From Carex sylvatica (lineage: Eukaryota; Streptophyta; Magnoliopsida; Poales; Cyperaceae), in contig CAXKVR010000044.1 in assembly GCA_964058845.1 (NCBI GenBank), positions 186,001 through 250,000 of the forward strand: a stretch of 64,000 nucleotides of DNA. The letters are read 5' to 3'. Under the pieces are notes generated by a model that had not been told where the DNA came from, searched no databases, and saw only the letters and a program-made list of their open reading frames with translations. Each line of letters starts with the position of its first letter. Position 1 is the stretch's first letter. Of the stretch, positions 672-64,000 are shown in pieces. A program made the position numbers and the translations under genes.

Positions 672-2152
672 TGATATCACCATATTTGATCTATTGTTCA
701 GACCAATTCCCATACCAAAATTTGCATTTTAAACAATTAAATAGCGTCTATTACATTGAATATCTATAGAATGTGGTACTGTTGCGTTTTCATTCTTATT
801 TGCAGATAAATTGGCAAAATCAGGAGATAACTGATAATCTGAGACTGTGCATGCGAGTCGCATCAACCCTGACGCGAGTCGCATACCACTCTGACGCTAC
901 CACAGATGCTAGCCGCATCAGACAGACTTGGATGCGACTCGCATCCATGCCACGCAACCCGCGTTACCACTCTGACGCTACCATAGATGCTAGCCACATC
1001 AGACAAACTCTGATGTGACCTGCATCAACACTGACGCGAGCCGCATCGGAGTTTTCCAGAGCAGAAGGCGGAGGCCCAAAGATGAAAGGGTCGTTTGGGA
1101 AGGCTATAAAAGGACATCCTCTGCCACTAACAAAGGGGATCGAAGAGAATCTAAGATAGAGCTGAGCAGTGAAGATTAGAGAGCTTCACAGATCTTCTTT
1201 CCTTCTTCTTCGGGTTTTATTATGATTTGTTCTTTCTTTATTTTCTTTCTTTATTTCTTTTGTTGATCATGATTGAGTAGATCTTTTAGTTTCTAGGGTT
1301 AAGATGTAGTCTGAAACTCTGTTTTGTAATGCATGATGTTTAGATCTAAGTTTATATTTGTGTTCATTTGCCTGAGTATTATTTCTATTGCTTGATTGAA
1401 ATTACTTGAATGAATCTTGTTGTCTACTGTTGAATGTCTATAGCATCTCTTCTAGTATTTTGGCCTTGATGTTTCTTACAATTAGATCAAGTATTTGAGG
1501 TAGATCTTTGATCTGAGAGGTGAGATCAATAGTAACTGAGAGGTGAAATTTTCATATATTGAGAGATAGTTGATACCTTTAGTAAACCAGACAAATGACA
1601 TAGAATTGAATACTCTAGAGGTATGAGATCTAAGAAGGTGAAGTTGCATTTCCTTACCAAGTTCATTAAGTCATATAACGAGAGTTGAGGTTTAGAAACT
1701 TTAGGTACAGCCAATGAATCCTTACACAAGTAAACAGCTAAAGAACAGACACATGCTGCATTCACTCGAGGTCCACGCGACTCGCGTCACACGGGTCGCA
1801 TACGAAGGTATGCGAGTCATGTTAAGGGGTCAGAGAGGCAAAGTTGAAAGACAAAATCCAAAACCCTGGAAACTTCATTTTATAATCAAGTAAAACCAAA
1901 CTTTTAATTGCTGTCATTTACTGTTATCGAACTTAGGAAATATAAACAAACCAAATCACTTTTTCATTACTTCTAGTACCTAACTGAGCTAAGCAAAATT
2001 CCAGAATTGAACCGTTCCCTGTGGATCGATACCTGATTATACCATTCGATAAGGGTTGTACACTTGTAATCTAATTCGGGAGCTAAATCAAGGTTTTAAA
2101 CAAAGTACAGCTCGCTGTACTGAAGCTTTGTGTATATGCTTTGCGCATAACA
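672..2152 (+). repeat. 5' LTR of element A
   Basis: The LTR begins TGATATCACC and ends GCATAACA, six bases before the primer site. The start matches the LTR start of B (TGATATCTCACAAACG on the minus strand) and D (TGATATCTTACAAACG), and blocks such as TGAATATCTATAGAATGTGG at 757-776 are shared with both. It contains a TATA box at 1104-1112. CG-rich palindromes lie at 851-1046 and 1766-1815. A conserved AAACCCTGGAAAC block follows at about 1860. No 3' partner survives in the window. Confidence 0.85.
1104..1112 (+). promoter_or_regulatory. TATA box in the LTR of element A
   Basis: CTATAAAAGG lies about 430 bp into the LTR, just downstream of the palindrome array at 851-1046. This is the expected place for the Pol II core promoter at the U3/R boundary. 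The call rests on motif and position only. Confidence 0.6.
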
Positions 2153-2158
2153 AGTTTT

Positions 2159-2176
2159 TGGCACCGTTGTCGGGGA
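2159..2176 (+). promoter_or_regulatory. Primer binding site (tRNA-Asp) of element A
   Basis: TGGCACCGTTGTCGGGGA lies just downstream of the LTR end. It matches the complement of the plant tRNA-Asp 3' end (TGGCGCCGTTGCCGGGGA, the form seen in B and C) with two transitions. The tRNA-Asp primer is typical of the Athila/Tat lineage. Confidence 0.85.
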
Positions 2177-2264
2177 ACGGCAATCATTTTTTTGGGTTTT
2201 AGCCTATCCAGGTTAATCTAGATTTTAATCTGTATCATTTCTTTTATTATTCTTATTCCAAAAT

Positions 2265-3401
2265 TTGGCTTTCTTACCACCTTCCACAGACAACTATCAA
2301 TTGAGGATCAAAAGTAACTACCACCTGAGGAGCAAAGGACTTGTTTTTGACGAAACTCCTCCAAGCAACATTGATCCTGCACAGTCCTCTCTAGACGCGA
2401 CTAGTGTCCCAGCTGAAGCGACTTGCATCAAGCTTGACGCGACCCACATCAAGGTAGACGCGACCCACGTTAAAGAGACAATGTCAGCACATCCGAGCAG
2501 GGAAGACAGGGAAGCAGAGGAAAGAGATAAGAAAGACCTGACTGACCAGTCTAACGATGACATGGATATCTTCATGCCAAGAACTTTACGCGAGTTTAAT
2601 GTGCCAAGGGCTGGAGATGTCAGAGGTGCAATCAGGCTGCCAAGAGTTTCTAGCCAGCAACCAAACTTCAATCCGGGAGTTGTCAACATGGTTCAGCAGA
2701 ACACATTCAATGGCTTGGATCATGAGGACCTGCATTCTCATCTCCAAACTTTTCTTGAATGCATTACAACCATTAAGACTAATGGGGCAACAGCTGACTA
2801 CACCAAACTTACTTTATTTCCTTTTACTCTTAGAGACAAGGCTAAGAAATAGTTAGGGTCTTTACCAAGGGACTCCATTACCAACTGGAGAGAACTGTCT
2901 AAATTATTTCTGACAAGGTTTTTCCCTCACAAAAGGATTGCAAAGGTACGAAACCAACTGACCAGTTTTAGGCAAAGGTCCGATGAACCACTCAATGAGT
3001 CCTGGGAAAGGTTTAGGGAATTGTAATACTCTTGTCCTCACCATGGTGTTCCAGATTGGCTGTTGATTCAAACTTTTTATGATGGCTTGACTGAAAGCAC
3101 TCGTACCACTATTGATGCAGTTGCAGGTGGAGCACTGATGTCAAAGGAACCTCTTGAGGCCATGATTTTGATTGATAACATGGCACAGAACCAACAGTGG
3201 TCTGGCCGCGACAACACCCGACCAGGAGGTGGCGGCAAATATGAGGTTGATCACATCACTGCCCTAACCGCCAAGATGGATGCTATGCAGAGGACAATGG
3301 ATAAGTTCAGTGTGAAGGTAGTCGAGCAGCAGCCGCAAACATGTGTCATGTGTGGAGATGAAAGGCACACTTATGAGCAATGCCCAAGTGTATCAGCTGA
3401 T
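2265..3401 (+). pseudogene. gag of element A, N-terminal part, interrupted
   Basis: A gag frame runs from about 2265 to the B insertion. No in-frame ATG is seen at the start, so the true start is uncertain. The capsid region contains ...WRELSKLFLTRFFPH... (about 2890-2935) and ends with the zinc knuckle C-X2-C-X4-H-X4-C at about 3340-3383. Two stops interrupt it: TAG at 2850 in place of a conserved Trp codon, and TAA at 3024. A linker at 2394-2478 encodes four seven-residue repeats of the form (D/E)AT-x-x-x-x, each carrying one CG palindrome at exact 21-bp spacing. The frame resumes at 13750. The zinc-knuckle Gly is replaced by Arg. Confidence 0.85.
3397..3401. repeat. Target site duplication (left) of array B
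   Basis: CTGAT lies directly before the TG of the first B LTR and recurs at 13745-13749 directly after the CA of the last B LTR. The 5-bp size is normal for Ty3/gypsy integrase, and it shows the three-LTR array entered at one site. Confidence 0.9.
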
Positions 3402-5088
3402 TGTTCACACAAAAGCGTATGGTACAAAGTTTCAGTACAGCAAGCCGTACCTTTTAACCTTTAATACACCTTCGGTTCAGACTGCAAGTGTACAGTCCTA
3501 TCGAGTAGTATATCATTGGGTATCGATCACAGGGACGGTTCAAATCTAAACCGGACTCTACTTAAATCAGTTAAAGACTAGAAGTGAGAAATGGTTGGTT
3601 TTTGGTATTTAATTCCTAATCAGTTCAATAACAGTAATTAAATGAAAGACAGTAAATAAACTTGGTTTAAATCAATAATAAAAGGCATTTCCAGGATTTC
3701 AGACTTATCTCAGTTCTGCCTCTCAGTCCCTGACACAGACCGTGTAGTTTCCTACATGGGTCATATCAGCTTACACGAGTCGTGTACTGTCGTACATGGG
3801 TCATGTGGACTTCGAGTTAATGCACCAATCACTGTTTCTTTACGTGGTTCCTTTGTGTAGGGTTCAACTGACCAGACCTAATGTTTCTAAACCTCAACTG
3901 TCGTATGTTGGTTTATTAACTTGGTATGGAATCTGCAATATCTGCCCTCTTTAGGCTCTAAACCTCAACTATCGTATATTGGTTCGAGTTACCAAGTTAC
4001 TTGTTTGATCTGTTGATAAGAGGAAATGTTCACCTTTCGGCTACTAGTTGGTTTCCCCTGTCGGATCACTAATCCTACCTCATATACTTAGTCTGGTTAA
4101 AATATCAAATTGGACACAGTACCTTATAGATGTGGCCTCATCTAGTGGTCAAACCAAATAATAATCAAACAATTCAAACTAAGCAATTAAAATCAATCAC
4201 AATCAAGCAAACATAAATTTCAACGTAAAAATCCAATAACTAGATGCAAAACAAAACATTCGATTACATCTTAACCCTAAAAACTAATAAAACTACTCAA
4301 ACATAGTACTAAAATAGATAACAAAGATAAAGGAATAAGAATTCATTCTAAAACCCGAAGTACAAAGAAGATCCACAATAAAAACTCATGTCTTTTGCTT
4401 CTCAACTTCGTCTCCAAGCAATAGCCGTCAATCTCTAACCCTAGAATTGTCTCTCTGCTCCAGAATTCCTCTCTTGTGCAAGAAATTCCATTTATATATA
4501 CTTTGGCCGACTTTCCTTCCTTTAGATTTCTTTCAAGAACTCCAGATTTCTTTCTGGATTTGTCTGATACGGCCCGTATCAAAATTGACACGGACCGTAC
4601 AGAATTTCCAAAAATGCGAGATTGTAGATCTTCTCGCAAGCTTTTCGAAAAGTGGTCATACACTCAAAACGGAGCTACGAGTCAAAATCTATGACTGTTT
4701 TAAGTTCGGATGCTGAAATTTCAGCATTGTTCTGGTCTGGTCGAGGCTGATAAGACCCGGACAAGATATTGTAAGACCCGGACAAGATATTGTAAGACCC
4801 GGACAAGATGTTGTAAGACCCGGACAAGATGTTGTACGACCCGGACAAGATATTGTACAACTCGGATAAGATGTTGTAAGACCTGGACAAGATGTTGTAA
4901 GACCCGTGTCAGAACTTCTCAAATCCAGATTTCTTCTCGATTTCATCTGATTCCTGCAAAGTAAGAAGAAACTTGCAGCAGTACCATATTCTATAGATAT
5001 TCAATACAATATGACTAATTTAATGATTCTAAACACAGGTTTTGGTACAAAATATAGGTCGAAAAGTAGATACGTTTGTGAGATATCA
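3402..5088 (-). repeat. LTR B1 (3' LTR of array B)
   Basis: On the minus strand it starts TGATATCTCACAAACG and ends TGTGTGAACA. It is 1687 bp long and holds seven full copies of a 21-bp repeat at 4752-4898. Compared with B2 and B3, it has lost CpG sites by transitions in the 3736-3805 block (for example ACATGGGTCA where B2 has ACACGGGTCG). It also lacks about 25 bp near 4008. Confidence 0.9.
4752..4911 (-). repeat. 21-bp tandem repeat in LTR B1 (7 full copies)
   Basis: The unit AAGACCCGGACAAGATRTTG plus one base repeats seven times and ends in a partial copy. LTR B2 has six copies (9144-9269) and LTR B3 has three (13492-13554). On the minus strand the block aligns with the CG palindrome pair of element D at 60821-60848, so it looks like an amplified, decayed form of that motif. 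Confidence 0.85.
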
Positions 5089-6129
5089 AATTCTCCCAAG
5101 CTGAAATCTTGCTTGTCCTCAAGCAAAAATCCCAAATCAGGTACCAGGTAGGTCTTTAAACTAACTAAATGCAAAATGAATTCCTAATTGTGAAAGCTTA
5201 CATGAGTTACTATTATCAAGAACCTCGAGAATCACTTTGACAACAATTTGGACTTTTTCTTAACCAATTTTGATTCACCCCACAAATTTACTAATCAAAC
5301 TTTAAATTATGAGATGTTTTGATATTTGTAAAGACTAATTACTTGAATTTATCAATATTTCACTTTTCTTCTGAAACAATGCCCTCGTTTGTGGTGATTT
5401 TTTTTTTTTTTTCGTCCCCCCAAGCTTGAACCAAACTTAAGTTAGAAAGCCGCGGACTTCATATGTTGATATATGCAAAAGTTTTTTAATTTTTTATCTA
5501 GCTCAAAGGCATCCAGATGGATTGTGCCAGTACTCTATTTTATTTTTCTAAAATTGGAAGACGAGCTCAAAGGCGCCCCTAAGGACTTATTGCCAGTACT
5601 CTTATTTTCTCCATCTTTTTATATGTTTTGTCCTCATTTTTTTTTCTTTTTCATTTGCATATATCATGAATACACACATCCACTGGTATTCTCTCATATC
5701 AATGGATATCCCAATCTTTCTATTATTTAAAATCTCATTTTCTTATTTTTAAATGCACAATTCAGTTTCAAAATGCTTTCTCGACATGATTCAAGTTTTC
5801 ATATTTTTAAGTTCTCAAAACAATCTTATTTAAAGCAGTTCTATGGTAAAATATGGGGTTAGTTCTAATTAATTTGGGGTCATCCCAGTCATAACCAATT
5901 TTTTTCACAAAAATCCTTAATTCTAACAATTCACACAAGTTTTCCACTTAAAAATGCAATTTTTTTTAAAAATAAACATGTCCTAAATGCAGATACAATT
6001 TTCTTCTATTCAACCCCCCAAGCTTGAATGAAACATTGTCCTCAATACTTGAATTCACACAAGAAAAAGTAAATAGAAGAAAACATAAAAACTAACCAGA
6101 CATGGAGTGAGGGGTGAAGCGGGGGCACC
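5089..6129 (-). other. 3' non-coding region of B unit 1, with polypurine tracts
   Basis: This stretch between the ORF end and the 3' LTR has no convincing gene. The polypurine tract abuts the LTR start at 5089-5105, and two further purine tracts of the form AAGCTTGGGGGG lie at about 5415 and 6015 (read on the minus strand). Much of it aligns with the equivalent region of element C (40797-41790), including GCTTGTCCTCAAGCAAAAAT at 5111-5130 and the block at 5440-5730. Short open frames here are probably chance. Confidence 0.75.
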
Positions 6130-7632
6130 TCACCGATCGGTGGGAGGTGGGTCGGGTGGTTTTTGGTGGAGTGCTGTGTCAAATGTGTCGAATGAATACA
6201 CCATTCTTTCTTCATACGGGTCAGGTGGTTTCTTCTTTTTAACGCACCAAGGGACATAATTCATAGACCATGTTGGTTGTGCACGGCCCGTATCCTGGTC
6301 TGCACGGTCCGTGTGCCTGTGATCATCCGCTGGTAAGGTCTTGTGCATGCATGTGGCTGGGTTTGTGCCCATCAGCTTCTCAATCAAGTTTTCGATCACA
6401 GTTCACTGAGTTTGGAAATCCTCCAAGAGTCTAGCAGTGCGATCGAGGGGTGGATCTAAGCGGAGGGCCGTGTTCTCAAACACTTGCAAAAGAAAAATCC
6501 ACCCCATATCTTTCAAGTCCTTGTTCGAGCACCCGATCGCGCTTATGTGAGCTTTCAATTTCCCCAAGAGCATGGCAGTCCGATCAGGGTTGAGATCTGC
6601 ATTTAAGATCACAGGACAAGATTTATCTAGGTCTAGGAACTCATACCTGAGGTTAGATGGAAGAGGCTTGAGCTCAGGAGTTGGCTACTCTGTCTGGCCG
6701 TTTGCACGGTCCGTATCATATGCGTTCGACCCATGTAGCATCCTTGTGTTAGCCTTGTCCGACTCGGCCTCTCTGTTCTGCTTCTCAGAAAGTGATGTAC
6801 GGTCCATATGGGATCCATCCGGTCCGTGTCCAAGTTCCTCTAGATTATCAGTTCTCACATCTGCTACATAAACTGATTCCAACTCGCTTGTTTCAACCTG
6901 CAACTCAGATGAATAATCAGGGTAATTTTTAACTGAGCTCTCGTATCCCTCGCGGAGTTGTCCCTTAGCCAATTGATCCACTACATTGACTGTGTAGCAT
7001 GTTTCTGGTTCAGCTAGCCTCTGAGGGAAAGAAACAGGTGGCCGGTAGGGTGGTGGTTGATTAAAGGTAGCAAGGTGAGCCATTTGCATATTTATCATCT
7101 TGCTTCGAGCAACTAATTGGGCGTTGATTGCTTGCATTTGCTCGAACATCATCTGATTCATCTTCCTTTGCCCGTGCATGAAGTCACTCACAGCGGGATC
7201 AATGTACGGCTCGGGTGAATCGGATTGGAATGGGTGGTTGTTCGAGTTGTCAAATGAAGCATTATTGTAGAAGTTGTGGCTGTTGTTGCTACTCAAGGGA
7301 TTGTTGAATGGTGGTCTCGAAAAGTAGGATGATTCATTGTTGAGATAGTTGACCTGCTCGGTTTCCTCATCCATTTCCGCATGTGGGCAATGCTCGTAAG
7401 AATGCCCCTTGTCTCCACACATGACACAAGGTTGTGGTCGATGGTTGACTACTGCCTTCACGCTCATCTTGTCCAAAGCCTTCTGCATAGCATCCAGTTT
7501 GGCGGATAGTGCAGCGATCTGATCAGCCTTATATCGACTGCCTCCTCCTCGAGAAATCTCGCGGCCTAACCACTGTTGGTTTGATGCCATATTATCGATC
7601 AGATTCATAGCGTATTGGGCTTCTCTGTCCAT
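6130..7632 (-). pseudogene. Deleted gag/pol frame of B unit 1
   Basis: A single frame of about 500 codons runs from ATG at 7632 to the stop at 6130, interrupted by TAG at 6685 and TGA at 6400. The first 315 residues are open. The frame starts in the last part of gag (AMNLIDNMASNQQW), so the capsid N-terminus is missing. A zinc knuckle (C-X2-C-X4-H-X4-C, residues ~68-81) and an NC tail follow. Protease is deleted, and the frame passes into the linker before RT (LKPLPSNLRYEF, about 6640-6680). It then joins a C-terminal segment ending in PPDPPPTDR, which resembles the end of the Athila-type ORF of element C. RT core, RNase H and integrase are absent. Unit 2 carries the same ORFs. Confidence 0.82.
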
Positions 7633-7727
7633 CAGGGCCCCAAATAAAAGAAATAAAAAAAAAATAAAGATACAAGTTAAAATCTAGATTAAATAAAATA
7701 AGCAAAATCGAGAAAATAATGATGCCG

Positions 7728-7745
7728 TCCCCGGCAACGGCGCCA
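7728..7745 (-). promoter_or_regulatory. Primer binding site (tRNA-Asp), B unit 1
   Basis: On the minus strand this reads TGGCGCCGTTGCCGGGGA, a perfect complement of the plant tRNA-Asp 3' end, six bases from the end of LTR B2. It fixes the element orientation as minus. Confidence 0.92.
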
Positions 7746-7751
7746 AAAACT

Positions 7752-9459
7752 TGTTCACACAAAAGCGTATGGTACAAAGTTTAAGTATAGCAAGCTGTAC
7801 CTTTTAACCTTTAATACACCTTCAGTTCAGACTGCAAGTGCACAGTCCTATCGAGTAGTATATCGTCGGGTATCGATCACAGGGACGGTTCAAATCTAAA
7901 CCGGACTCTACTTAAATCAGTTAAAGACTAGAAGTGAGAAATGGTTGGTTTTTGGTATTTAATTCCTAATCAGTTCAATAACAGTAATTAAATGAAAGAC
8001 AGTAAATAAACTTGGTTTAAATCAATAATAAAAGGCGTTTCCAGGGTTTCAGACTTATCTCAGTTATGCCTCTCAGTCCCTGACACGGATCGTGTAGTTT
8101 CCTACACGGGTCGTATCAGCTTACACGAGTCGTGTACTGTCGTACACGGGTCGTGTACTGTCGTACACGGGTCGTGTGGACTTCGAGTTAATGCACCAGT
8201 CACTGTTTCTTTACGTGGTTCCTTTGTGTAGGGTTCAACTGACCAGACCTAATATTTTTAAACCTCAACTGTCGTATGTTGGTTTATTAACTTGGTATAG
8301 AATCTGCAATATATGCCCTCTTTGGGCTCTAAACCTCAACTGTCGTATATTGGTTTGAGTTACCAAGTTACTTGTTTGGAATACTAAAGGTAACATCTTA
8401 TCTGTCGATAAGAGTAAATGTTCACCTTCCGGCTACTAGTTGGTTTCCTCTGTCGGATCACTAATCCTACCTCATGTACTTAGTCTGGTTAAAAGATCAA
8501 ATTGGACACAGTACCTTATAGATGTGGCCTCATCTAGTGGTCAAACCAAATAATAATCAAACAATTCAAACTAAGCAATTAAAATCAATCACAATCAAGC
8601 AAACACAAATTTCAACGTAAAAATCCAATAACTAGATGCAAAACAAAACATTCGATTACATCTTAACCCTAGAAACTAATAAAACTACTCAAACATAGTA
8701 CTAAAACAGATAACAAAGATAAAGGAATAAGAATTCATTCTAAAACCCGAAGTACAAAGAAGATCCACAATAAAAACTCGCGTCTTTTGCTTCTCAACTT
8801 CGTCTCCAAGCAATAGCCGTCAATCTCTAACCCTAGAATTGTCTCTCTGCTCTAGAATTCCTCTCTGGTGCAAGAAATCTCGTTTATATATACTTTGGCC
8901 GACTTTCCTTCCTTTAGATTTCTTTCAAGAACTCCAGATTTCTTTCTGGATTTGTCTGATACGGCCCGTATCAAAATTGACACGGACCGTACAGAATTTC
9001 CAAAAATACGAGATTGTAGATCTTCTCGCAAGCTTTTCGAAAAGTGGTCATACACTCAAAACGGAGCTACGAGTCAAAATCTATGACTGTTTTAAGTTCG
9101 GATGCTGAAATTTCAGCATTGTTCTGGTCTGGTCGAGGCTGATAAGACCCGGACAAGATATTGTAAGACCCGGACAAGATGTTGTAAGACCCGGACAAGA
9201 TGTTGTACGACCCGGACAAGATATTGTACAACTCGGATAAGATGTTGTAAGACCTGGACAAGATGTTGTAAGACCCGTGTCAGAACTTCTCAAATCCAGA
9301 TTTCTTCTCGATTTCATCTGATTCCTGCAAAGTAAGAAGAAACTTGCAGCAGTACCATATTCTATAGATATTCAATACAATATGACTAATTTAATGATTC
9401 TAAACACAGGTTTTGGTACAAAATATAGGTCGGAAAGTAGATACGTTTGTGAGATATCA
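7752..9459 (-). repeat. LTR B2 (shared middle LTR of array B)
   Basis: At 1708 bp it serves as 5' LTR for unit 1 and 3' LTR for unit 2. It keeps intact CG palindromes centred at 8089, 8110, 8129, 8150 and 8171, and six copies of the 21-bp repeat at 9144-9269. It is closer to B3 than to B1. Confidence 0.9.
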
Positions 9460-10500
9460 AATTCTCCCAAGCTGAAATCTTGCTTGTCCTCAAGCAAAAA
9501 TCCCAAATCAGGTACCAGGTAGGTCTTTAAACTAACTAAATGCAAAATGAATTCCTAATTGTGAAAGCTTACATGAGTTACTATTATCAAGAACCTCGAG
9601 AATCACTTTGACAACAATTTGGACTTTTTCTTAACCAATTTTGATTCACCCCACAAATTTACTAATCAAACTTTAAATTATGAGATGTTTTGATATTTGT
9701 AAAGACTAATTACTTGAATTTATCAATATTTCACTTTTCTTCTGAAACAATGCCCTCGTTTGTGGTGATTTTTTTTTTTTTTCGTCCCCCCAAGCTTGAA
9801 CCAAACTTAAGTTAGAAAGCCGCGGACTTCATATGTTGATATATGCAAAAGTTTTTTAATTTTTTATCTAGCTCAAAGGCATCCAGATGGATTGTGCCAG
9901 TACTCTATTTTATTTTTCTAAAATTGGAAGACGAGCTCAAAGGCGCCCCTAAGGACTTATTGCCAGTACTCTTATTTTCTCCATCTTTTTATATGTTTTG
10001 TCCTCATTTTTTTTTCTTTTTCATTTGCATATATCATGAATACACACATCCACTGGTATTCTCTCATATCAATGGATATCCCAATCTTTCTATTATTTAA
10101 AATCTCATTTTCTTATTTTTAAATGCACAATTCAGTTTCAAAATGCTTTCTCGACATGATTCAAGTTTTCATATTTTTAAGTTCTCAAAACAATCTTATT
10201 TAAAGCAGTTCTATGGTAAAATATGGGGTTAGTTCTAATTAATTTGGGGTCATCCCAGTCATAACCAATTTTTTTCACAAAAATCCTTAATTCTAACAAT
10301 TCACACAAGTTTTCCACTTAAAAATGCAATTTTTTTTTAAAAATAAACATGTCCTAAATGCAGATACAATTTTCTTCTATTCAACCCCCCAAGCTTGAAT
10401 GAAACATTGTCCTCAATACTTGAATTCACACAAGAAAAAGTAAATAGAAGAAAACATAAAAACTAACCAGACATGGAGTGAGGGGTGAAGCGGGGGCACC
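9460..10500 (-). other. 3' non-coding region of B unit 2
   Basis: This is a near-identical copy of 5089-6129, offset by 4371 bp, with only homopolymer-length changes seen. It holds the polypurine tract next to LTR B2 and the same internal purine tracts. No gene is seen. Confidence 0.8.
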
Positions 10501-12003
10501 TCACCGATCGGTGGGAGGTGGGTCGGGTGGTTTTTGGTGGAGTGCTGTGTCAAATGTGTCGAATGAATACACCATTCTTTCTTCATACGGGTCAGGTGGT
10601 TTCTTCTTTTTAACGCACCAAGGGACATAATTCATAGACCATGTTGGTTGTGCACGGCCCGTATCCTGGTCTGCACGGTCCGTGTGCCTGTGATCATCCG
10701 CTGGTAAGGTCTTGTGCATGCATGTGGCTGGGTTTGTGCCCATCAGCTTCTCAATCAAGTTTTCGATCACAGTTCACTGAGTTTGGAAATCCTCCAAGAG
10801 TCTAGCAGTGCGATCGAGGGGTGGATCTAAGCGGAGGGCCGTGTTCTCAAACACTTGCAAAAGAAAAATCCACCCCATATCTTTCAAGTCCTTGTTCGAG
10901 CACCCGATCGCGCTTATGTGAGCTTTCAATTTCCCCAAGAGCATGGCAGTCCGATCAGGGTTGAGATCTGCATTTAAGATCACAGGACAAGATTTATCTA
11001 GGTCTAGGAACTCATACCTGAGGTTAGATGGAAGAGGCTTGAGCTCAGGAGTTGGCTACTCTGTCTGGCCGTTTGCACGGTCCGTATCATATGCGTTCGA
11101 CCCATGTAGCATCCTTGTGTTAGCCTTGTCCGACTCGGCCTCTCTGTTCTGCTTCTCAGAAAGTGATGTACGGTCCATATGGGATCCATCCGGTCCGTGT
11201 CCAAGTTCCTCTAGATTATCAGTTCTCACATCTGCTACATAAACTGATTCCAACTCGCTTGTTTCAACCTGCAACTCAGATGAATAATCAGGGTAATTTT
11301 TAACTGAGCTCTCGTATCCCTCGCGGAGTTGTCCCTTAGCCAATTGATCCACTACATTGACTGTGTAGCATGTTTCTGGTTCAGCTAGCCTCTGAGGGAA
11401 AGAAACAGGTGGCCGGTAGGGTGGTGGTTGATTAAAGGTAGCAAGGTGAGCCATTTGCATATTTATCATCTTGCTTCGAGCAACTAATTGGGCGTTGATT
11501 GCTTGCATTTGCTCGAACATCATCTGATTCATCTTCCTTTGCCCGTGCATGAAGTCACTCACAGCGGGATCAATGTACGGCTCGGGTGAATCGGATTGGA
11601 ATGGGTGGTTGTTCGAGTTGTCAAATGAAGCATTATTGTAGAAGTTGTGGCTGTTGTTGCTACTCAAGGGATTGTTGAATGGTGGTCTCGAAAAGTAGGA
11701 TGATTCATTGTTGAGATAGTTGACCTGCTCGGTTTCCTCATCCATTTCCGCATGTGGGCAATGCTCGTAAGAATGCCCCTTGTCTCCACACATGACACAA
11801 GGTTGTGGTCGATGGTTGACTACTGCCTTCACGCTCATCTTGTCCAAAGCCTTCTGCATAGCATCCAGTTTGGCGGATAGTGCAGCGATCTGATCAGCCT
11901 TATATCGACTGCCTCCTCCTCGAGAAATCTCGCGGCCTAACCACTGTTGGTTTGATGCCATATTATCGATCAGATTCATAGCGTATTGGGCTTCTCTGTC
12001 CAT
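10501..12003 (-). pseudogene. Deleted gag/pol frame of B unit 2
   Basis: This is the second copy of the B frame, offset by 4371 bp from 6130-7632. It has the same 315-residue opening ORF (11056-12003), zinc knuckle, TAG and TGA stops, and Athila-like C-terminal tail. Sharing both stop codons shows that the stops were already present before duplication of the unit. If any protein is made it would be the 315-residue NC-containing fragment. Confidence 0.82.
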
Positions 12004-12098
12004 CAGGGCCCCAAATAAAAGAAATAAAAAAAAAATAAAGATACAAGTTAAAATCTAGATTAAATAAAATAAGCAAAATCGAGAAAATAATGATGCCG

Positions 12099-12116
12099 TC
12101 CCCGGCAACGGCGCCA
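12099..12116 (-). promoter_or_regulatory. Primer binding site (tRNA-Asp), B unit 2
   Basis: Same 18-nt match to tRNA-Asp as at 7728-7745, six bases from LTR B3. This is the PBS that pairs with the true 5' LTR of the array. Confidence 0.92.
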
Positions 12117-12122
12117 AAAACT

Positions 12123-13744
12123 TGTTCACACAAAAGCGTATGGTACAAAGTTTAAGTATAGCAAGCTGTACCTTTTAACCTTTAATACACCTTCAGTTCA
12201 GACTGCAAGTGCACAGTCCTATCGAGTAGTATATCGTCGGGTATCGATCACAGGGACGGTTCAAATCTAAACCGGACTCTACTTAAATCAGTTAAAGACT
12301 AGAAGTGAGAAATGGTTGGTTTTTGGTATTTAATTCCTAATCAGTTCAATAACAGTAATTAAATGAAAGACAGTAAATAAACTTGGTTTAAATCAATAAT
12401 AAAAGGCGTTTCCAGGGTTTCAGACTTATCTCAGTTATGCCTCTCAGTCCCTGACACGGATCGTGTAGTTTCCTACACGGGTCGTATCAGCTTACACGAG
12501 TCGTGTACTCGTACACGGGTCGTGTGGACTTCGAGTTAATGCACCAGTCACTGTTTCTTTACGTGGTTCCTTTGTGTAGGGTTCAACTGACCAGACCTAA
12601 TATTTTTAAACCTCAACTGTCGTATGTTGGTTTATTAACTTGGTATAGAATCTGCAATATATGCCCTCTTTGGGCTCTAAACCTCAACTGTCGTATATTG
12701 GTTTGAGTTACCAAGTTACTTGTTTGGAATACTAAAGGTAACATCTTATCTGTCGATAAGAGTAAATGTTCACCTTCCGGCTACTAGTTGGTTTCCTCTG
12801 TCGGATCACTAATCCTACCTCATGTACTTAGTCTGGTTAAAAGATCAAATTGGACACAGTACCTTATAGATGTGGTCTCATCTAGTGGTCAAACCAAATA
12901 ATAATCAAACAATTCAAACTAAGCAATTAAAATCAATCACAATCAAGCAAACACAAATTTCAACGTAAAAATCCAATAACTAGATGCAAAACAAAACATT
13001 CGATTACATCTTAACCCTAGAAACTAATAAAACTACTCAAACATAGTACTAAAACAGATAACAAAGATAAAGGAATAAGAATTCATTCTAAAACCCGAAG
13101 TACAAAGAAGATCCACAATAAAAACTCGCGTCTTTTGCTTCTCAACTTCGTCTCCAAGCAATAGCCGTCAATCTCTAATCCTAGAATTGTCTCTCTGCTC
13201 TAGAATTCCTCTCTGGTGCAAGAAATCTCGTTTATATATACTTTGGCCGACTTTCCTTCCTTTAGATTTCTTTCAAGAACTCCAGATTTCTTTCTGGATT
13301 TGTCTGATACGGCCCGTATCAAAATTGACACGGACCGTACAGAATTTCCAAAAATACGAGATTGTAGATCTTCTCGCAAGCTTTCCGAAAAGTGGTCATA
13401 CACTCAAAACGGAGCTACGAGTCAAAATCTATGACTGTTTTAAGTTCGAATGCTGAAATTTCAGCATTGTTCTGGTCTGGTCGAGGCTGATAAGACCCGG
13501 ACAAGATGTTGTAAGACCCAGACAAGATGTTATACGACCCGGACAAGATGTTGTAAGACCCGTGTCAGAACTTCTCAAATCCAGATTTCTTCTCGATTTC
13601 ATCTGATTCCTGCAAAGTAAGAACAAACTTGCAGCAGTACCATATTCTATAGATATTCAATGCAATATTACTTATTTAATGATTCTAAACACAGGTTTTG
13701 GTACAAAATATAGGTCGGAAAGTAGATACGTTTGTGAGATATCA
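12123..13744 (-). repeat. LTR B3 (5' LTR of array B)
   Basis: At 1622 bp it is the shortest of the three, mainly because it holds only three copies of the 21-bp repeat (13492-13554) and one palindrome unit fewer near 12510. A TATA-like TATATATAAA (minus strand) lies at 13231-13240. The outer end abuts CTGAT at 13745-13749. Confidence 0.9.
13231..13240 (-). promoter_or_regulatory. TATA box in LTR B3
   Basis: On the minus strand TATATATAAA lies about 505 bp into the 5' LTR, just after the palindrome pair. Position and sequence fit the core promoter of the element. Confidence 0.55.
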
Positions 13745-13749
13745 CTGAT
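13745..13749. repeat. Target site duplication (right) of array B
   Basis: CTGAT matches 3397-3401. The next base, 13750, continues the gag codons of element A in frame. Confidence 0.9.
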
Positions 13750-16604
13750 GACGAGACTGGGCAAGTACACTCCCTCAACAATGAACCATCCTTCTTTCCT
13801 AAACCTCCTTTCAACCGATCCTACTCCAAGGACCCGGTAGAGCAACAAAACTGGAGGTGGAATCAGAATAACCCAGCACCATTCAACAATCCTCCCAGAC
13901 CTTCTTTCACCAACTCTTCTGGCAGTAACAATACCAACAGGAATTTCTACCATAATGCTTCATTTCCAAATCAGACCAACCGAGCACCTCAAGCTAGTTC
14001 TTCCAAATCATATGTGCCTCCCTATGCCGATAACTTCACTCATGAGCAAGGTAAAATGAATCAAATCATGTGGGACCAAATGCAATCTATGTCTGCTCAA
14101 TTAGCTGCTCAGAACAAGTTGCTGGAGCAATTGAGTCACATAGTCACATCGAGCCAACCAACATGGAAAGCTACCTACTCAACCAGAACCCAACCCCAAG
14201 GGAGAAGCAAAGGCAATTACTCTGCGAAGTGGGACGCAATACAAAGAACCATCCTACCCATTAGATCAGACCCCAGTCGATGCGACCCGCGTCAACCTCT
14301 GAAGAGGTGAATCTGGGCCGCATGGAAACAACTCGACCTGCATCCCAAATTAAGGTACCGGTGAATACGACTCGCATTCCTGACATGCGACCCGCGTGTC
14401 ATGAATCTGAGAGTCAGAAAATGAAGGAGATTGAGAAACCACCATTATACAGACCACCTGTACCCTTCCCCCGAAGACTAGCTGAGACCAAATTGAACGC
14501 ACAATTTTCTAATTTTGTCGAGGTTCTTAAGGGACTGCACATCACAATCTCATTCACTGACGCCTTGACCCAAATGCCCACCTATGCCAAGTTCCTGAAG
14601 GACATCCTATCCAACAAGCGAAGCTTGGGGGGGCACGAGACGGTGAAACTGACAGAACAGTGCAGTGCAATTCTGAACAGTGAGCTACCACCCAAACTGG
14701 ATGACCCTGGTAAATTCTTTATTCCTTGCATTATAGGGAAAGCCACGATCAAGAGAGCTCTTTGGGATTTGGGAGCTAGTGCGAGTCTCATGCCTCGCAC
14801 AATCTTTGATCGATTGGGAATGAGTGAGCTTCGACCTACTTGAATGACCTTACAGCTAGCAGACTCCTCGGTAAGACTTCCACTCGACATAGTGGAAGAT
14901 GTGCCAGTTTAGGTTGGAAAATACTATGTACCTGTTGATTTTGTAGTGATGCAAATAGAAGAGGATAAGGAAGTTTCCATCATCCTGGGACGACCTTTTC
15001 TTAGAACTGCAGGTGCAATTATTGATGTGTTTCAAGGAACACTGACCTTGAATTTTGGAGGGGAGAAGGTGCGATTTCAACTTGATCGTACCATGAAGTA
15101 TCCTTCCCCAACCGAATCTTGTTTCCGAATAGATGCGATCGAAGAATGTTTAACAAATTTGGCAGAAGGTTACTACTTGCTTGAGGAAATCAACAAGGAT
15201 AGGGATGCACATGCTAATTTTTGGTCTGAGATGAAGGATGGACCAAACCACTTAGAATCAGATGTGGAAACGTTTGACCTGAGAAGACCTAGATGCGATC
15301 CGCATGGACCTTACGCGAGTCGCGTTCAAAAGCTTGAAGACCTGAAGGCCAGAGGATGCGAGTCGGACGAAACCAACGCAGGTTCCGCACGCGAGTCGAG
15401 TGCTTCTGATACAACCCACATCAAGGCTCAGATAGAGGGAATGCTTCCTGAGCTCAAGCCTCTACCAACCAACCTCAGGTATGAATTTCTTGGCCCAGAC
15501 CGCTCTTTTTCCGTTATTGTCAGTGCAGATTTAAATCCCGATCAAACCGCCAAACTTCTCGAGAAGCTGAAACTTCACCAAGGCACAATCGGGTATTCAA
15601 TTAGTGACCTGAGGGGAATCAGCCCGTCCATCTGCTTACACAGAATCTTCCTGGAAGACGATCACAAGCCATCTGTTGAACACCAGCGACGGCTCAACCC
15701 AAATCTAAGAGAACTAGTCAAGAAAGAGATTTTCAAGCTTCTTGATGCAGGTATTATCTACTCAATTTCTGACAGTTAATGGGTGAGCCCTATCCATGTG
15801 GTGCCCAAAAGAGTAGGCACGGCAGTGGTAACCAATGAGAAGAATGAGCTAATCCAAACACGTGTGGTGAATGGGTATCGAATGTGTATTGATTACAGGA
15901 AACTCAACGCAGCCATACGCAAGGATCACTTTCTTCTACCATTTGTCGATCAACTCTTAGAAAGACTTGCTAACCACTCCTACTTTTGTTATCTGGATGG
16001 TTACTCTGGTTTCTTCCAAATCCCAATTCACCCAAAAGACCAAGAGAATACCACTTTTACTTATCCGTATGGTACATATGCATACCGTAGAATGCCTCTT
16101 GGTCTTTGTAATGCACCAGCAACTTTTCAGAGAGCCATGATGGCCATCTTTTCTGACTTCATTGAGCATGAGGTTGAGATTTTCATGGATAATTTTTCTG
16201 TCTATGGTTCATGTTTTGACTCTTGTTTAACTAACTTTTGCAAAATTTTACAGAGATGCGAAGAAGTTCATTTGATTTTGAATTGGGAGAAATGTCACTT
16301 CATGGTCCAAACAGGTGTTGTCCTGCGACATGTTGTGACCTCCAAAGGCATAGAGGTTGATAAGGCAAAAATTGAAGTGATTGAGAAACTTGCAGTCCCA
16401 ACAAATGTTAAAGGGATTCGAAGTTTCTTAGGTCACGCAGGATTCTACCGTCGCTTCATTAAAGATTTTTTCAAAATTGCAAAACCACTGATCAATCTAC
16501 TCATTAAGGATTCTGAATTTGTTTTCACTGATGATTGTGTCAAGTCTTTTTGTAGCTTAAAGGAAGCCCCCATTTCAGCACCCATTTTGCAAGCACCTGA
16601 CTGG
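13750..16604 (+). pseudogene. gag C-terminus, protease and partial RT of element A
   Basis: The A frame resumes at 13750 with the Asn-rich NC tail. A frameshift lies before 14310. The protease follows, with active-site motif DLGAS at 14767 and ILGRPFL at about 14985. Stops occur at 14841 (TGA), at about 14911 (TAG) and at 15777 (TAA, where B and C relatives have a Lys codon before WVSP). RT covers RMCIDYRKLN through to about 16604. Its catalytic box reads FMDNFSVYG instead of the usual MDDF, so the second catalytic Asp is lost. The gag-protease linker (14278-14400) and protease-RT linker (15290-15400) hold further copies of the CGACTCG/CGAGTCG palindromes. Element A cannot be active. Confidence 0.88.
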
Positions 16605-19380
16605 CCAATATATTGCAACCGCATATGACCGCTTTGATCTCCAATAACCAAACAGCCTTTATCCGAAATAGAAACATCGCGGATAATACAATTCTGGTAA
16701 GGGAAATACTTCATTCTTTTCAATCTAGAAGCTATAAAGAAAAGGCTTTTATGTTGAAAGCGGATATCACGAAAGCCTTCGACACGGTCAAATGGGCATT
16801 TGTGGCAGAAGCAATGAGTATGGTTAATTTTCCTACAAATTTAATTAGTCTAATTCAATCATGTTGGAGTCAAGCAAGAGTTACAATTTTGGTGAATGGC
16901 AGCGGGCAGGGATTCATCTCTCCAACCCGAGGCTTAAGACGGGGTTGTCCTTTGTCGCCCTACCTCTTTATCCGTGCGATGGAGCTTCTAACTAAGCAAT
17001 TTCAATCAGTTTACTAGCAGGCAGCATAAGGGGTATCAAATTGGCAAGAAGTGCACCTCCAATAACACACATCCTATATGCAGATGATCTCATGGTTATG
17101 GGCCGAGCGGATGAGAGTGAAGTGCAGACAATCAAACAGATTTTTGATGTGTTTGAGAGGCAATCGGGTCTGGCAATCCACCCGGAAAAGTCAACAATAT
17201 GGTACAGTGCGAGGTGCGATGAGGAGTGCAGAGAATTGCTCACACAGCAGTTTAATGCCAAAGTGGGTGAGGAACAGGAAAAGTATTTAGGGGTTATTGT
17301 TACACAGTCAAACCGCCAAAATGACCTTACTCACAATCTGCTAGTTGACAAGTTATATGCGAAATTATCTGGTTGGAAAATAAATATGCTTTCACTAGCG
17401 GGTCGGGTAGCATTAATTAAGTCTGTTTTATTTTTTATACTTGTCTACTATATGTCGGTTGCGGCACTGCCGGCTAAGACGGTAAAAGAAATTAATTCGG
17501 TACTTAGAAGGTTTTTATGGGGAAAATTGGGTACAGAGAGATACATTGCATTCATTTCATGGCAGAAAATCTGTGGAAGCACGGAAACAAGGAGGTTGGC
17601 AATAATAGACATAAAGAATTTCAATCAGGCCTTGCTCTTGAAATTAGTTTGGCAACTAGCTTCAGGAACTGACAAACCATGGGTTCAGATTTTCCGAGCC
17701 AAGTATTTCACTAGAATTGGATTTTGGGCTGTAAAGCGAAGGTCGGATGCGAGCCCCCTATGGAGGGCGATGCAGGACCTTAAAGGTTTTTTCAGTAACC
17801 GATTACAGTGGCATGTGGGGGCAGGGAGGAGATGTACGAATTATAAATGAATCATGGTATCAAGGGTGGGAAGTTCAAAATGTGACATCAAATGCTCAAA
17901 GGGATACAAAAATTGCGGATGTGTTTGATCTCAATCAGAACTTTTGGAATTCACAAAAAATAGAGGGTCTGATGGGGATGCAAGCACTCCAATGTATCAT
18001 TGCATCAGCACCAATGCCATCAAGCGACCCATTAGTACAAGACAGACTCATTTGGACAGAAAGCAAATTGGGTATTTACACAACAAAGGAGGGCTACATG
18101 CTCCTGTTACAAAGAAACTGGTACCAACCACAGGTATGCCAACACAAAGCACAAGCATGGCAGCGTCTTTGGGCCTGGAAGGAGGTGATACCACGAGTAA
18201 AAACCTCTATTTGGCGGGCGATCCACAGTGGTCTAGCAACTGCATCCGAAATCCACAGACAGATCCAATCAGTTAACCCAGTATGTCCCAGATGTGCACA
18301 GGAAAATGAATTTCTAACTCACACTTTATTTTTTTGTCACTTGTCTAGAGTCACATGGTATGCTTCTCACTTTGCTCTCAGAACTTCTGATTTACCACTT
18401 GATTTTACAATAGCCTTCTTAGCTATTACAGATCACATGGATATAGCAAATATCATAAAGTTGTGTAACATTATGTGGTGCCTTTGGAAGGGAAGAAATG
18501 AAGCAATCTTTCAAGGAAAGAAGCACACTCCACAAAAAATGGATCTCTCAAATTTTTCAGAAGTGACCTCGCAGGGCATGCTAACAACTCGGCCTTGTCA
18601 TACAGTGCCAATCCCAACGGGCGCAGAGGTACTTTTAATTGATGCGTCATGGTAAGCAAGCAAGAAGGCGGGGTGGGGGGCCACTTGGTATGACACGAGG
18701 GGAATACTCAAGGAGGTAGGTTTTAGTAACATGACTACGGCAGACCCTTTTCATGCGGAGGCAACAGCCTTGTTGCAGGTACTACAAGCTGGTATAGCAA
18801 GAACGGGAGGTAGTGCAACACAACAAGTTTACATCTTCTCTGATTGTAAAATACTAGTTATGGCAATCAACAACAAAATACTGATTCTTTACCATCATGG
18901 AGTGCGACCCAAACAGTGGTCAGGTGTGTGAGATTAGCCCAAGAAATGCATCAGGTGGTTAAAATTCTGCACATTCAGAGGGAGGCGTTACAGGGTCCCC
19001 ATTTGTTAGCAAACTGGGCAAGAAATAGTGGGCAGCAAGGATGTTATACGAGTATGGAGAAAATTCTAACTAGTTTTCAAATCCCACGCAATATTCAACA
19101 AGAATTCTTCAATATGAAGTCTCCAGTAATCAGATAGTTCTGAAAAATTTCATCTCATATTATGTAGCTTCTTCTTTAGCCGGGCTACAGGGGTATATGT
19201 CCTTCATACCTAAGTTAGGCTATAGTGTGTTTATTTTTGCATTTCCTAGAAGGTCGCGTGTCAACTATTTTAATTGCTTCATTTTTATATATCTTAGTCT
19301 AATTGTTGAACTTTGCTTGTAATCGTTGTTTAAGATTCAATAAAATAATACCTACGGGTTTCTCATCAAAAAAAAAAAAG
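16605..19380 (+). mobile_element. 5'-truncated LINE (L1-type with RNase H)
   Basis: ORF2-like sequence begins inside RT (NQTAFIRNRNIADN, about 16640), continues through the catalytic HILYADDL (about 17065-17090), a zf-RVT region (IWRAIHSGL... and CPRC, about 18210-18350) and an RNase H domain (LIDASW at about 18635, FHAEATAL at about 18750, FSDCK at about 18836). It ends with a 3' UTR and a poly(A) run at about 19369-19380. Frameshifts lie near 16990, 17820 and 18900, and a TAA sits after LIDASW, so it is dead. The endonuclease and ORF1 are missing. No target duplication is seen, and element A does not resume after the poly(A). Confidence 0.88.
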
Positions 19381-46061: not shown

Positions 46062-46236
46062 CTGTGGAGATGGGGGAGGACAAGATTTCGCTTTGTCTTT
46101 GAGCTTCAAAGTTTGGCTTCTTGTTTGTGGTGCCAGCGCTTTAAAATCTGAGAAAGGGAGAAGAAGATTGAGTAAAAAGAGATAACAGGGAGTAAGGGAA
46201 ATTGGTTTACACGGCCAGACTCACGGTCTACTGGCC

Positions 46237-46238
<2 letters not shown>

Positions 46239-46292
<54 letters not shown>
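46239..46292. repeat. Poly(A)/poly(T) tract of about 53 bp in the leader of C
   Basis: A pure A run on the plus strand (T run on the coding strand) lies between the primer site and the gag start, just beside a GGCC palindrome block at 46208-46238. Its length is likely unstable. Confidence 0.9.
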
Positions 46293-46297
<5 letters not shown>

Positions 46298-46383
46298 CTT
46301 TTTCTGTTTGAAAGCAGGTAAATAAGGAAACAAATAATTAAAAGTACTTTCCTAAAATAAAAACTAGAATCTAGCCTAGTTCC

Positions 46384-46401
46384 CCGGCAACGGCGCCAAA
46401 A
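46384..46401 (-). promoter_or_regulatory. Primer binding site (tRNA-Asp) of element C
   Basis: The minus strand reads TGGCGCCGTTGCCGGGGA next to the 5' LTR, a perfect tRNA-Asp 3' complement. Confidence 0.92.
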
Positions 46402-46406
46402 AGCTT

Positions 46407-60638: not shown

Positions 60639-63600
60639 TGATATCTTACAAACGTATCTACTTTCCGACCTATATTTTATGCCAAATCTTGTGTTTAGAA
60701 CCATTAAATCGGTCGTATTTTATTGAATATCTATAGAATATGGTACTGCTGCAAGTTTGTTCTTACTTTGCAGGAATCAGATGAAATCGAGGAGAAATAT
60801 GGATTTGAGAAGTTCTGACACGGGCCGTACAGCATCTTGTTCGGGCCGTATCAGCCTCGACCCAATGATCGCACAAGAATATATGCCAAAAAGTCTCAGT
60901 ATAGCAAGCTATACTTTTTAAACCTTTGTTATACTCTGTCAATTCAGATAGCAAGTGTACTATCCTGTCGTTGAGTATGCTCAGGTATCGATCCACAGGG
61001 ACGGAAGAAAAACACTAGACTTATCCTAAAATCACTTGGAATTCTAGAAGTGAGAGAAATTGGTTTGGTTTTAGTTCTAACAATTCTACTTATTAAAAGA
61101 CGATAAAAGATAATTAAAGTTGTTTTCAATTGATAAAAAGGAGTTTCCAGGGTTCAGATTTCATTTCTGTTCAGTCTCAAGGCATACGGCCCGTACAGAT
61201 TCCCGTACGGTCCGTATGGGACCTCAAGTTAATGCTGCAGCTACTGTTTTCTGTGTCGATACTGTGTTTAGGGTTTTTTTTGACCAGATCTAGATACCTA
61301 ACCTCAACTTTCGCATTTTGGCCTGATACCCGATTACCGGACTCAAGTACTTTCCTCTTAGATGCGTTAAACCTCAACTTTCGCATTTTGGCCTAATTTA
61401 TCTAAGTTACTTGTTAGTTTACTAAAAGTATCCAAGGACTTTCGCCTCAAGGAAAGTTTCGCCTTTCGGGTACTCCTTGGTTTCACCCTACTTCATATAC
61501 TTTATTCGGTTGGAATGAATTTCATAGACTTGGCTCCTAACACTTAGATGTGCGCATTCATCTAACGGGGTGACTAATCAGATTCAAGCAAGCACAAATA
61601 GAGCAATAAAAATACTACATAACAAAGTAAAAACAAAGCGTTCAACAAAAAATCCAAGTAGCATACAAGCAAGACTAAACTAGAAACTACATCTTACCCC
61701 TAGAAACAAAGTAAATTAGCTACTCATATTCATGAGATAGCACAAATAACAAGAAATAAGAGAGTTCATGATAAAACAGTGGAAAATCCGAAGATCCGTT
61801 GCAAAACTTCCGTTCTTCCCTTCTCTTCTTCTTTTCCTCTTGTCCAAGTAACCTCGAAAAATGAATGGCATGATGATAGATGAAATGTTATTGATTTATC
61901 CCCCTTTTCTGCTGTGGAATATCTCCTTTAATGTCCCAGATCACGCCTCCAGGGGTTTCCTAATCGGCTCGTCAAATCGTGCTCAATTCAGATTCCAGCT
62001 GGATTTTCCGAATCAGCGTTGTACGGCCCGTACAGAATCCCGTACGGACCGTATGCCTGGGCTTTGTCTTGGAGACTTTGTGCCTCTGTTGTGGATCCTT
62101 CTGTGTGGTTGGGCAGAACTTGTACGGTCCGTACAGAATATCATACGGGCCGTATGAAAAGTAGTCAGATGCAGTTTTTCACCCTTTTTTCTGCAAAATA
62201 CCAAACAAAGCATAGCAGTACCATATTTCATCGAAATACAAGTAAATAGTCCACATTCATAGGCTTTAAAGCACAGGTTTCAATGTAAATTAGGGCCATA
62301 ATTTAGATATAATATGGAGATATCACCCAACCAGAACAATGCTGAAATTTTAGCATCTGAACTTAAAACAGTCATAGATTTTGACTCGTAGCTCTGTTTT
62401 GAGCGTATGACCACTTTTCAGAAAGCTTGCGAGAAGATCTACAATCTACACAAAAGACAAGCATTTTCAGATATTCTGACACGGACCGTGTCAATTCCGA
62501 CACGGGTTGTGTCAGACAAAATATGGCAGGAAATCTAGAATTTTGGAAAGAAGTCTGAAGGAAGGAAAGTCGGTCTGGTGACCATATAAGTGAGATTTCT
62601 TGCACTAGGAGAGGTATCTGAGCATACAGGAGCTAACCCTAGGTGACTTCTTGGCGGTTGACTTGGAGGCGAAGTAGAGAGGAGGAAAACGCAAAATTTC
62701 CGACGATTCTTCTTTGTATTTTCAGGTTTTGTCATGAATTGTCTTTCTTACTCTTGTTTTGCTGTTTCTAGAATGATGTTTAAGTAAATTTTTAGTTTCT
62801 AGGGTTATGATGTAGTAAAATACTTTGTTTACTTGCTATTTATTTGATTATGTGTTGATTCTTGTGTTTACTTGCTTGAGTATTATTTTAATTGCTTTTT
62901 TAAAATTGATTGATTATTATTTGGTTTGACCACTAGATGAGACCTAATCTATAAGGTATTGTGTCCAATTTGATCTTTCAACCATACTAGTATTTGAGGT
63001 GGGTTCACAAACCTAGAGGTAGAACTAATTAGTAGCCGAGAGATGAACTTTTCATACATCGAGAGATGGTGAATATCTTTAGTAAGCCAAACAAGTGACT
63101 TAGGTAATTCAAACCAATAAACAAAAATTTAGGTAATTCAAACCACTTTCTGATAACTACCTTTAGTAAATTGCAATTCTGTTATCAAGTTTATTAAGCC
63201 AACAAACGAGCGTTGAGGTTTAGAAACATCAGGTCGATCAGTTTACCCTACATAAGTCAATCGGTGCAGAAATCATATAACAGCTGTATTTACCCAAAGC
63301 TAACACGGACTGTGTCAATTCCAACACGGGTCGTGTCAGCCGAGAGACAGAGTTGCAGATGAGTCAGAAACCCTGGAAACCTTTTTAAACCAATTTAAAT
63401 TACTAGTTATTTCTTATTACTGTTGTCAGAATATAAAATAATCAAATCAACTTTTCACACACTTCTAGTCTTTCAATTAATTTAGGTTAAGTCTAGTTTA
63501 AATTTGAACTGTCCCTTGGATCGATACCTTATCATACTACCCGATAGGATTGTGCACTTGCAATCCGATTCGAAAAGTGTACCAAGGTTTAAAAGGTACA

Positions 63601-63642
63601 GTTTACTGTACTGAAACTTTGTTATATATTTTTGGTATAACA
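60639..63642 (+). repeat. 5' LTR of element D, interrupted by solo LTR H
   Basis: Starts TGATATCTTACAAACG and ends GGTATAACA before the primer site. Without H and one CCCAA copy it is about 1.54 kb. It aligns over much of its length with the LTRs of B, but its palindromes are of ACACGGNCCGTGT type: pairs centred at 60824/60845, 62485/62506 and 63309/63330. Confidence 0.88.
60866..62325 (-). mobile_element. Solo LTR H (1460 bp) inside LTR D
   Basis: On the minus strand it starts TGATATCTCC and ends TGCGATCA. CCCAA at 60861-60865 and 62326-62330 flank it, and LTR D reads through when it is removed. There is no PBS or coding region. It carries palindrome pairs of GTACGGNCCGTAC type centred at 62149/62128, 62048/62027 and 61211/61190. 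Confidence 0.9.
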
Positions 63643-63648
63643 AGTTTT

Positions 63649-63666
63649 TGGCACCGTTGCCGATGA
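63649..63666 (+). promoter_or_regulatory. Primer binding site of element D
   Basis: TGGCACCGTTGCCGATGA lies six bases after the LTR end. It matches the tRNA-Asp site with three changes, two of them in the last four bases. Confidence 0.75.
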
Positions 63667-63755
63667 CAACATTCATATTTTTTCTAGATTTTTGCTTATT
63701 TTATTTTAAATTCTAGATTTTACTTTGTATCTTTTCTTTTCTTTTTCTCTCTCTA

Positions 63756-64000
63756 AAGAATACGCTAAAATTCGTCCCACCTCCAAAGGGCGATTACCAT
63801 CTGAGGAGCAAAGAGCAATTATCTGACACTGACCGTATTGATTTTCACACGGACCGTACAGCTCCTCCAGACACCACTGTTCCTGCACAACCACCTCTGC
63901 ACTCAGTCCATCCGAGCAGAGCAGAGATGAGTACCCACACGAATGATAGAGACAAGGATGAGGACTTCAATGATGCCTATTCTGATAATGACATGGCTGA
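63756..64000 (+). CDS. gag of element D, N-terminal part, cut by window edge
   Basis: An open frame, with no stop up to the window end, contains the DYHLRSK motif shared with the gag start of element A. A linker around 63820-63870 holds palindrome-derived TDR codons. No ATG is seen at the start of the similarity, as in A, so the start is uncertain. The orientation and distance from the PBS fit gag. Whether the rest of D is intact lies outside the window. Confidence 0.65.

Follow-up and report, generated by a model that had tools for sequence, protein, structure and literature searches.

Regularly spaced, family-specific CG palindromes in Athila retrotransposons of Carex sylvatica as candidate sites for an element-encoded protein with a predicted VANC fold

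Short CG-containing palindromes recur, at regular spacing and in shared places, in the Athila-type long terminal repeat (LTR) retrotransposons of a 64-kb window of the Carex sylvatica genome (the whole stretch analysed, C44:186001-250000; genome scans cover the 64-Mb assembly of 950 contigs), and the question raised by this locus is which molecule reads them. Four elements, here called A, B, D and H, carry the sites, and a fifth, C, carries a variant. The arrays and their regular spacing are real and go beyond chance. With moderate confidence, the palindromes are read here as family-specific sites of the element's own ATHILA protein, for which a VANC fold is predicted, serving anti-silencing and/or LTR activation.

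From the perspective of spacing, a pattern scan of the window returned 67 CG-R-N-Y-CG cores. Exactly 21 bp separates 14 pairs of them, a distance at which two control patterns gave 0 pairs, and in first-order Markov copies of the window (2-kb blocks, 100 runs) the averages were 10.9 cores and, for the 21-bp distance, 0.01 pairs (maximum 1). Strict pairs 19-23 bp apart number 19, every one of them within element A, B, D or H, and there are 0 in 17,000-60,600, element C included. These pattern counts, set against controls and simulated copies, confirm the motif, its coordinates, its slots and its excess over chance as given in a preliminary description of this DNA. Among the 27 core centres listed there, 21 carry the strict core and six are decayed (2401, 2422, 2443, 2464, 62506 and 63309); the spacing claimed to be exactly 21 bp is 20-22 bp overall, with one family mostly at 22. 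Genome-wide, the core gave 1298 pairs at 21 bp versus 22 for the reversed pattern, and 362 versus 21 pairs at 22 bp. Pairs at 16 bp also exceed the control (376 versus 79, the listed places being mostly other CG-rich repeats), and the bare core is therefore not specific. Reading of 50 listed 21-bp places gave 33 palindrome pairs, 16 other repeats and one unclear case. For ACGGNCCGT, 541 pairs with a gap of 3-33 bases were counted versus 0, and 50 listed pairs comprise 39 at 20-21 bp, six at 40 or 42 bp and five in an unrelated inverted repeat; the spacing is 20-22 bp in nearly all pairs listed by the genome scans for three different palindromes. That unrelated inverted-repeat family (e.g. C6:18243, C15:491300) has ACGGTCCGTCCGGTCT ends flanking an A/T-rich core. 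As for helical phasing over longer distances, the best period is about 10.0-10.1 bp (p about 0.02), in a test too weak to build on, the distances not being independent.

The distribution of the sites along a complete element can be followed in two full-length relatives on contig C1, assigned to Athila by a gag-pol region and then a PF03078 open reading frame (ORF) between LTRs. These are an H-type element (C1:106777-120847, LTRs 99.5% alike) and a second lineage, E22 (L021; C1:225075-237525, LTRs 97.9% alike). Pfam detects reverse transcriptase (RT), RNase H, integrase and PF03078 in both; gag and protease are identified by Pfam in H and by reading in E22. In H, GTACGGNCCGTAC pairs 20-21 bp apart occupy two LTR slots (278/299 and 1124/1145 of 1470), with a lone site at 177. 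Internal H sites, which bear out the copies described earlier in gag and pol linkers, are found at the gag start, in the gag/protease and protease/RT linkers (twice each), in the RNase H/integrase linker, and before and after the ATHILA ORF. The E22 site is TTGCGGNCCGCAA, spaced 21-22 bp and present in the LTR, in the protease/RT linker and between integrase and the ORF. Pairs recur mostly about every 72 bp in E22 and every 101-102 bp in H. Counting both LTRs and at least four of six symmetric pairs, strict-core sites number 32 in H and 27 in E22, of which a few are probably due to chance.

The letters of the palindrome differ among lineages. The A-type palindrome is GCGANTCGC, and a third ORF clade (L028, L029) has CCGCANTGCGG at 20-22 bp without the CG-R-N-Y-CG core, which is thus no common denominator; CCGCANTGCGG and the 22-bp TTGCGGNCCGCAA are additions to the families described before. 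A CGG-CCG core is present in the H, E22 and B/D classes and not in GCGANTCGC or CCGCANTGCGG. When the LTRs of H, B, A and D are aligned, their shared slots, proposed earlier, come to lie in register, the last directly before CCCTGGAAAC, and because of this register slots and spacing are common to the families, with letters that are family-specific. The motif had also been said not to align between families and to outpace its surroundings. The first fails, as the motif columns align in register, and the second is not supported: identity between families is 0.52-0.75 in these columns and 0.52-0.72 elsewhere, and in six comparisons motif identity was higher in three, equal in one and lower in two (both with A).

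The class of the motif follows the clade of the ATHILA ORF in a tree of 18 rows (fragment L035 left out), with class labels assigned by reading the sites beside each ORF and three of the six labels represented by one row each. Three members (L036, L037 and L038) are represented by one open piece each, with 31-48% of columns filled, and long branches are flagged for E22, C and L027. The label of L025, CCGCA class, was given on weak sites, and the part read for L036 shows no more than single GCGGCCCGC and GCGACCCGC sites. Within this tree, L027 (C157:18154-20784) belongs to a clade sister to the A type and has mixed ACACGGGTCGTGT and GTACGGGTCGTAC sites; it may be the gene-carrying counterpart of families B and D.

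Structural models predict that the env-like ORF of Athila (PF03078) shares the fold of VANC21 and that a C-terminal coiled coil of its product could join subunits. The protein is soluble, with basic stretches resembling nuclear localisation signals in most copies, and hydropathy gave no transmembrane segment, as a retroviral-type envelope protein would have, in 15 proteins, some of them partial (highest 19-residue Kyte-Doolittle mean 1.43). In four ATHILA proteins, Pfam (E up to 1) listed PF03078 and neither DUF1985 nor DUF287. Looking for a DUF1985 link by sequence gave three own-genome matches, all below the cut-off, two pieces compared with solved structures gave chance rows only, and a profile comparison gave a probability of 0.1. 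Two ORF alignments run against the sequences of solved structures, up to E 10, recovered mostly coiled coils and no VANC21. The viral structure library held no match at E 0.001 or better, NCBIfam returned only rows far below cut-offs, and none of 30 pattern matches in viral contigs was confirmed as a relative; protein-relative searches returned 8 and 3 matches. The dimeric, perhaps element-encoded, VANC-like binder suggested earlier has gained support from the predicted fold and from the agreement of motif class with ORF clade, from which we infer the binding itself.

Sites in coding linkers are read in phases 0, 1 and 2, yielding unrelated peptides, and the spacings 20 and 22 are no multiples of three. 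The use of three reading phases means that the DNA is conserved and not the peptide, and selection on a peptide was rejected on this ground. Similarity of linkers to flanks is 0.31 and 0.33, versus 0.28 for shuffled sequence (standard deviation 0.021); they barely resemble each other beyond the shuffled level, so that most pairs maintain their spacing with no recent duplication behind it. Genuine 21-bp expansions occur as well, in the three B LTRs (7.4 units in the first, 6.4 at 9143-9277 and 3.4 at 13491-13562). The centre base of the palindrome is free: between neighbours it is identical in 20 of 41 unique pairs (11.8 expected) and complementary in 3 of 41 (10.0 expected; 6 with wobble). Hairpin pairing of neighbouring palindromes in RNA was rejected, complementarity being below chance. 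Judged from its letters, an odd centre within a two-fold symmetry fits a protein dimer on DNA.

In the mechanism proposed, a symmetric, dimeric protein would bind the palindromes as double-stranded DNA, and dimers at neighbouring sites would lie on one face of the helix and cooperate. The binder would most likely be the 'env-like' product, each Athila lineage having its own version of the protein and its own palindrome. Specificity would come from the many sites per element, some 25-30 palindromes in a full-length copy with both LTRs, distributed over LTR slots, the vicinity of the ORF and coding linkers. Once bound to the array, the protein would probably act against silencing, much like VANC on VANDAL elements, and/or activate the LTR promoter, and members without the gene, B among them, could borrow it in trans. 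Selection on both site and ORF fits the condition of B (no gene, expanded arrays) and of C (integrase and most of RT lost, ORF kept). More tentatively, the 'envelope-like' gene of Athila may encode, instead of an envelope, a DNA-binding protein of VANC fold that relieves silencing and evolves together with the 25-30 or so palindromes of its own family, the gene-less members being hitch-hikers. What weighs against the mechanism is the state of the CpGs: nothing indicates that the CpGs of the motif escape decay, those of B decay like its other CpGs, and for this reason present copies look silenced. The LTR pairs of H and E22 have too few differences to judge CpG decay.

Alternatively, the palindromes might be bound by a protein of the host, a transcription factor or methyl-CpG reader, that drives the LTR promoter, the elements merely carrying enhancers. 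This is unlikely, even if the CGG-CCG core is common to three classes here and, according to the accessible text on them, Sireviruses (unrelated Ty1/copia elements) have CGG-CCG palindromes as repeats both in the LTR and ahead of an env-like gene (PMC2829016). One host protein would need to read GTACGGNCCGTAC, TTGCGGNCCGCAA, GCGANTCGC and CCGCANTGCGG alike; the classes switch with the ORF clade of the element, and for a promoter role the copies that lie several kb into it, in polyprotein linkers, are unnecessary. Another element protein, Gag or integrase, could use the sites for packaging, integration or chromatin tethering, since clade structure would be common to all element proteins and the sites occur throughout the element, but both proteins have other established roles and the predicted fold match to an array-binding protein belongs to the ATHILA ORF, which makes this very improbable. 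Least credible is that the sites act as RNA (hairpins, dimer-linkage palindromes) or result from slippage: the palindromes are able to pair in RNA and certain arrays consist of tandem duplications that differ from one LTR to another within a single insertion, but the deficit of complementary centres, the mismatch that an odd free centre places in most self-duplexes of four palindrome classes, and a spacing that holds across largely unrelated linkers all speak against it.

Coordinates of the elements of the window are collected in Table 1. The B array is inserted in the gag of A, flanked by the 5-bp repeat CTGAT (3397-3401 and 13745-13749), and the single frame of at least 110 amino acids in its internal part is a gag C-terminal/linker frame of 332. 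B, a short element with few genes, forms an array with three LTRs, among which the copy number of the 21-bp array varies. Element C has LTRs 99.7% alike, and its variant sites behave as had been claimed: GGCC of opposite-sense half-sites are 21 bp apart, three times, with same-sense copies 12 bp apart. Its predicted VANC-fold ATHILA domain is located at about 42108-42950. C is a recent Athila-type insertion that joins gag, protease and the ATHILA domain in one frame, without most of RT and without integrase. C-like gag-ATHILA frames exist at three places (also on C692 and C109; 1469, 1474 and 829 amino acids), of which the first alone was read; open frames of 1474 and 829 amino acids carry PF03078. 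H is a solo LTR nested within the LTR of D (5-bp repeat CCCAA). Besides element C, 17,000-60,600 holds copia (RVT_2) and CACTA (tnp2) sequence and an 81-bp satellite, whose array at 19520-26596 has about 73 copies in two blocks. A tnp2 transposase and a PGG domain were detected in the window.

Table 1. Retrotransposon features and palindromic sites of the 64-kb window
Feature	Position	Strand	Details
Element A LTR, GCGANTCGC class of Athila	672..2153	+	sites 857/878, 938, 1040, 1781/1795
Element A N-terminal gag frame	2229..2852	+	four decayed sites, 21-bp spacing: 2401/2422/2443/2464
Element A frame (gag)	3027..3464	+	continues into B array
B array, LTR-internal-LTR-internal-LTR	3402..13744	-	sites of ACACGG/ATACGG class
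B LTRs	about 3402-5088, 7751-9459, 12122-13744	-	
21-bp tandem array in B LTR1	4751..4906	-	7.4 copies, cores decayed
B LTR2, five sites preceding CCCTGGAAAC block	8083..8177	-	steps 21/19/21/21 bp
Element A 3' part	13738..16628	+	gag C-terminus and protease-like part (by reading), RT (Pfam)
Element A 3' part, GCGANTCGC-class sites	14286, 14371/14391, 15299/15319, 15362, 15395		differing reading phases
Element C, Athila-type	39220..47982	-	LTRs 39220-40796, 46406-47982; 5-bp repeat TTTGA
Element C LTR variant sites	40514..40624	-	ACGGCC and GGCCGT half-sites; second LTR copy 47700-47810
Element C 1469-aa frame	41811..46220	-	gag, protease, RT stub (by reading), then ATHILA domain
Element D LTR, interrupted by H solo LTR	60639..63643	+	sites 60824/60845, 62485/62506, 63309/63330
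H solo LTR, GTACGGNCCGTAC family	60866..62325	-	sites 61190/61211, 62027/62048, 62128/62149
Element D site just past its LTR	63845..63860, centre 63853	+	roughly position of H gag-N site

Once a predicted fold, a candidate DNA target per clade and a 20-22 bp rule are named, the role of the extra ORF of Athila becomes testable by simple binding assays. By Pfam, the additional 3' ORF known from Athila (env-like; PF03078/Transposase_32) is the same ORF as here. In sunflower it has a nuclear localisation signal, and the accessible part of that account gives no function, DNA target or VANC link (PMC11728184). Whether Athila ORFs shape methylation is left open in the accessible text of another paper (PMC12844716). 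Searches of the open-licence PMC literature, a scope outside which closed journals and preprints fall, showed no report of Athila palindrome arrays or of a fold link between Athila and VANC.

Palindromes of Sireviruses are reportedly the subject of a 2016 Genome Research paper. Sireviruses are Ty1/copia elements, whereas those described here are Ty3/gypsy, with a PF00078-type RT before RNase H and integrase, plus PF03078. As far as the accessible account goes, Sirevirus palindromes recur in the LTRs as well as ahead of the env-like gene, with a CGG-CCG core in 12 of 13, linker copies exist only where ENV does, and coding copies only at the ENV start (PMC2829016). Copies in the LTR and upstream of the env-like gene are likewise found in H and E22, and sites upstream of the ORF in further copies too. 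That account, in its accessible part, gives neither a fixed spacing nor a binder (PMC2829016), whereas Athila sites are 20-22 bp apart. The likeness in core (for the H, E22 and B/D classes), palindromy and position before an env-like gene may be convergence on a similar need.

The VANC proteins of Arabidopsis MULEs (VANC21, VANC6) bind tandem motifs, with methylation lost across their elements, and co-evolve with these targets, the arrays expanding and contracting and the motifs varying among related families, as described in the accessible parts of two papers (PMC5735166, PMC10398659); unpublished VANC structures are mentioned in the accessible text of two meeting reports (PMC8756742, PMC12859917). 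VANC/VANDAL and Athila are alike in an element-borne protein, in short clustered motifs that differ by family, in arrays of changing size and, by prediction, in a shared fold. They differ in carrier, VANDAL being a MULE DNA transposon and Athila an LTR retrotransposon (RT, RNase H and integrase; gag in H), and in motif: that of Athila, palindromic and CG-containing, recurs at 20-22 bp, unlike VANC targets, and also lies in gag, protease/RT and RNase H/integrase linkers, whereas VANC targets are in noncoding regions. The Athila protein further differs from VANC in a predicted long C-terminal helix and in lacking DUF1985 and DUF287 by Pfam. On this reading, the Athila system would, by analogy, work like VANC/VANDAL while being no member of it by sequence or carrier. 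If true, sequence-specific counter-silencing extends beyond one DNA-transposon family to widespread plant LTR retrotransposons, which would share with MULE transposons one kind of counter-silencing machine.
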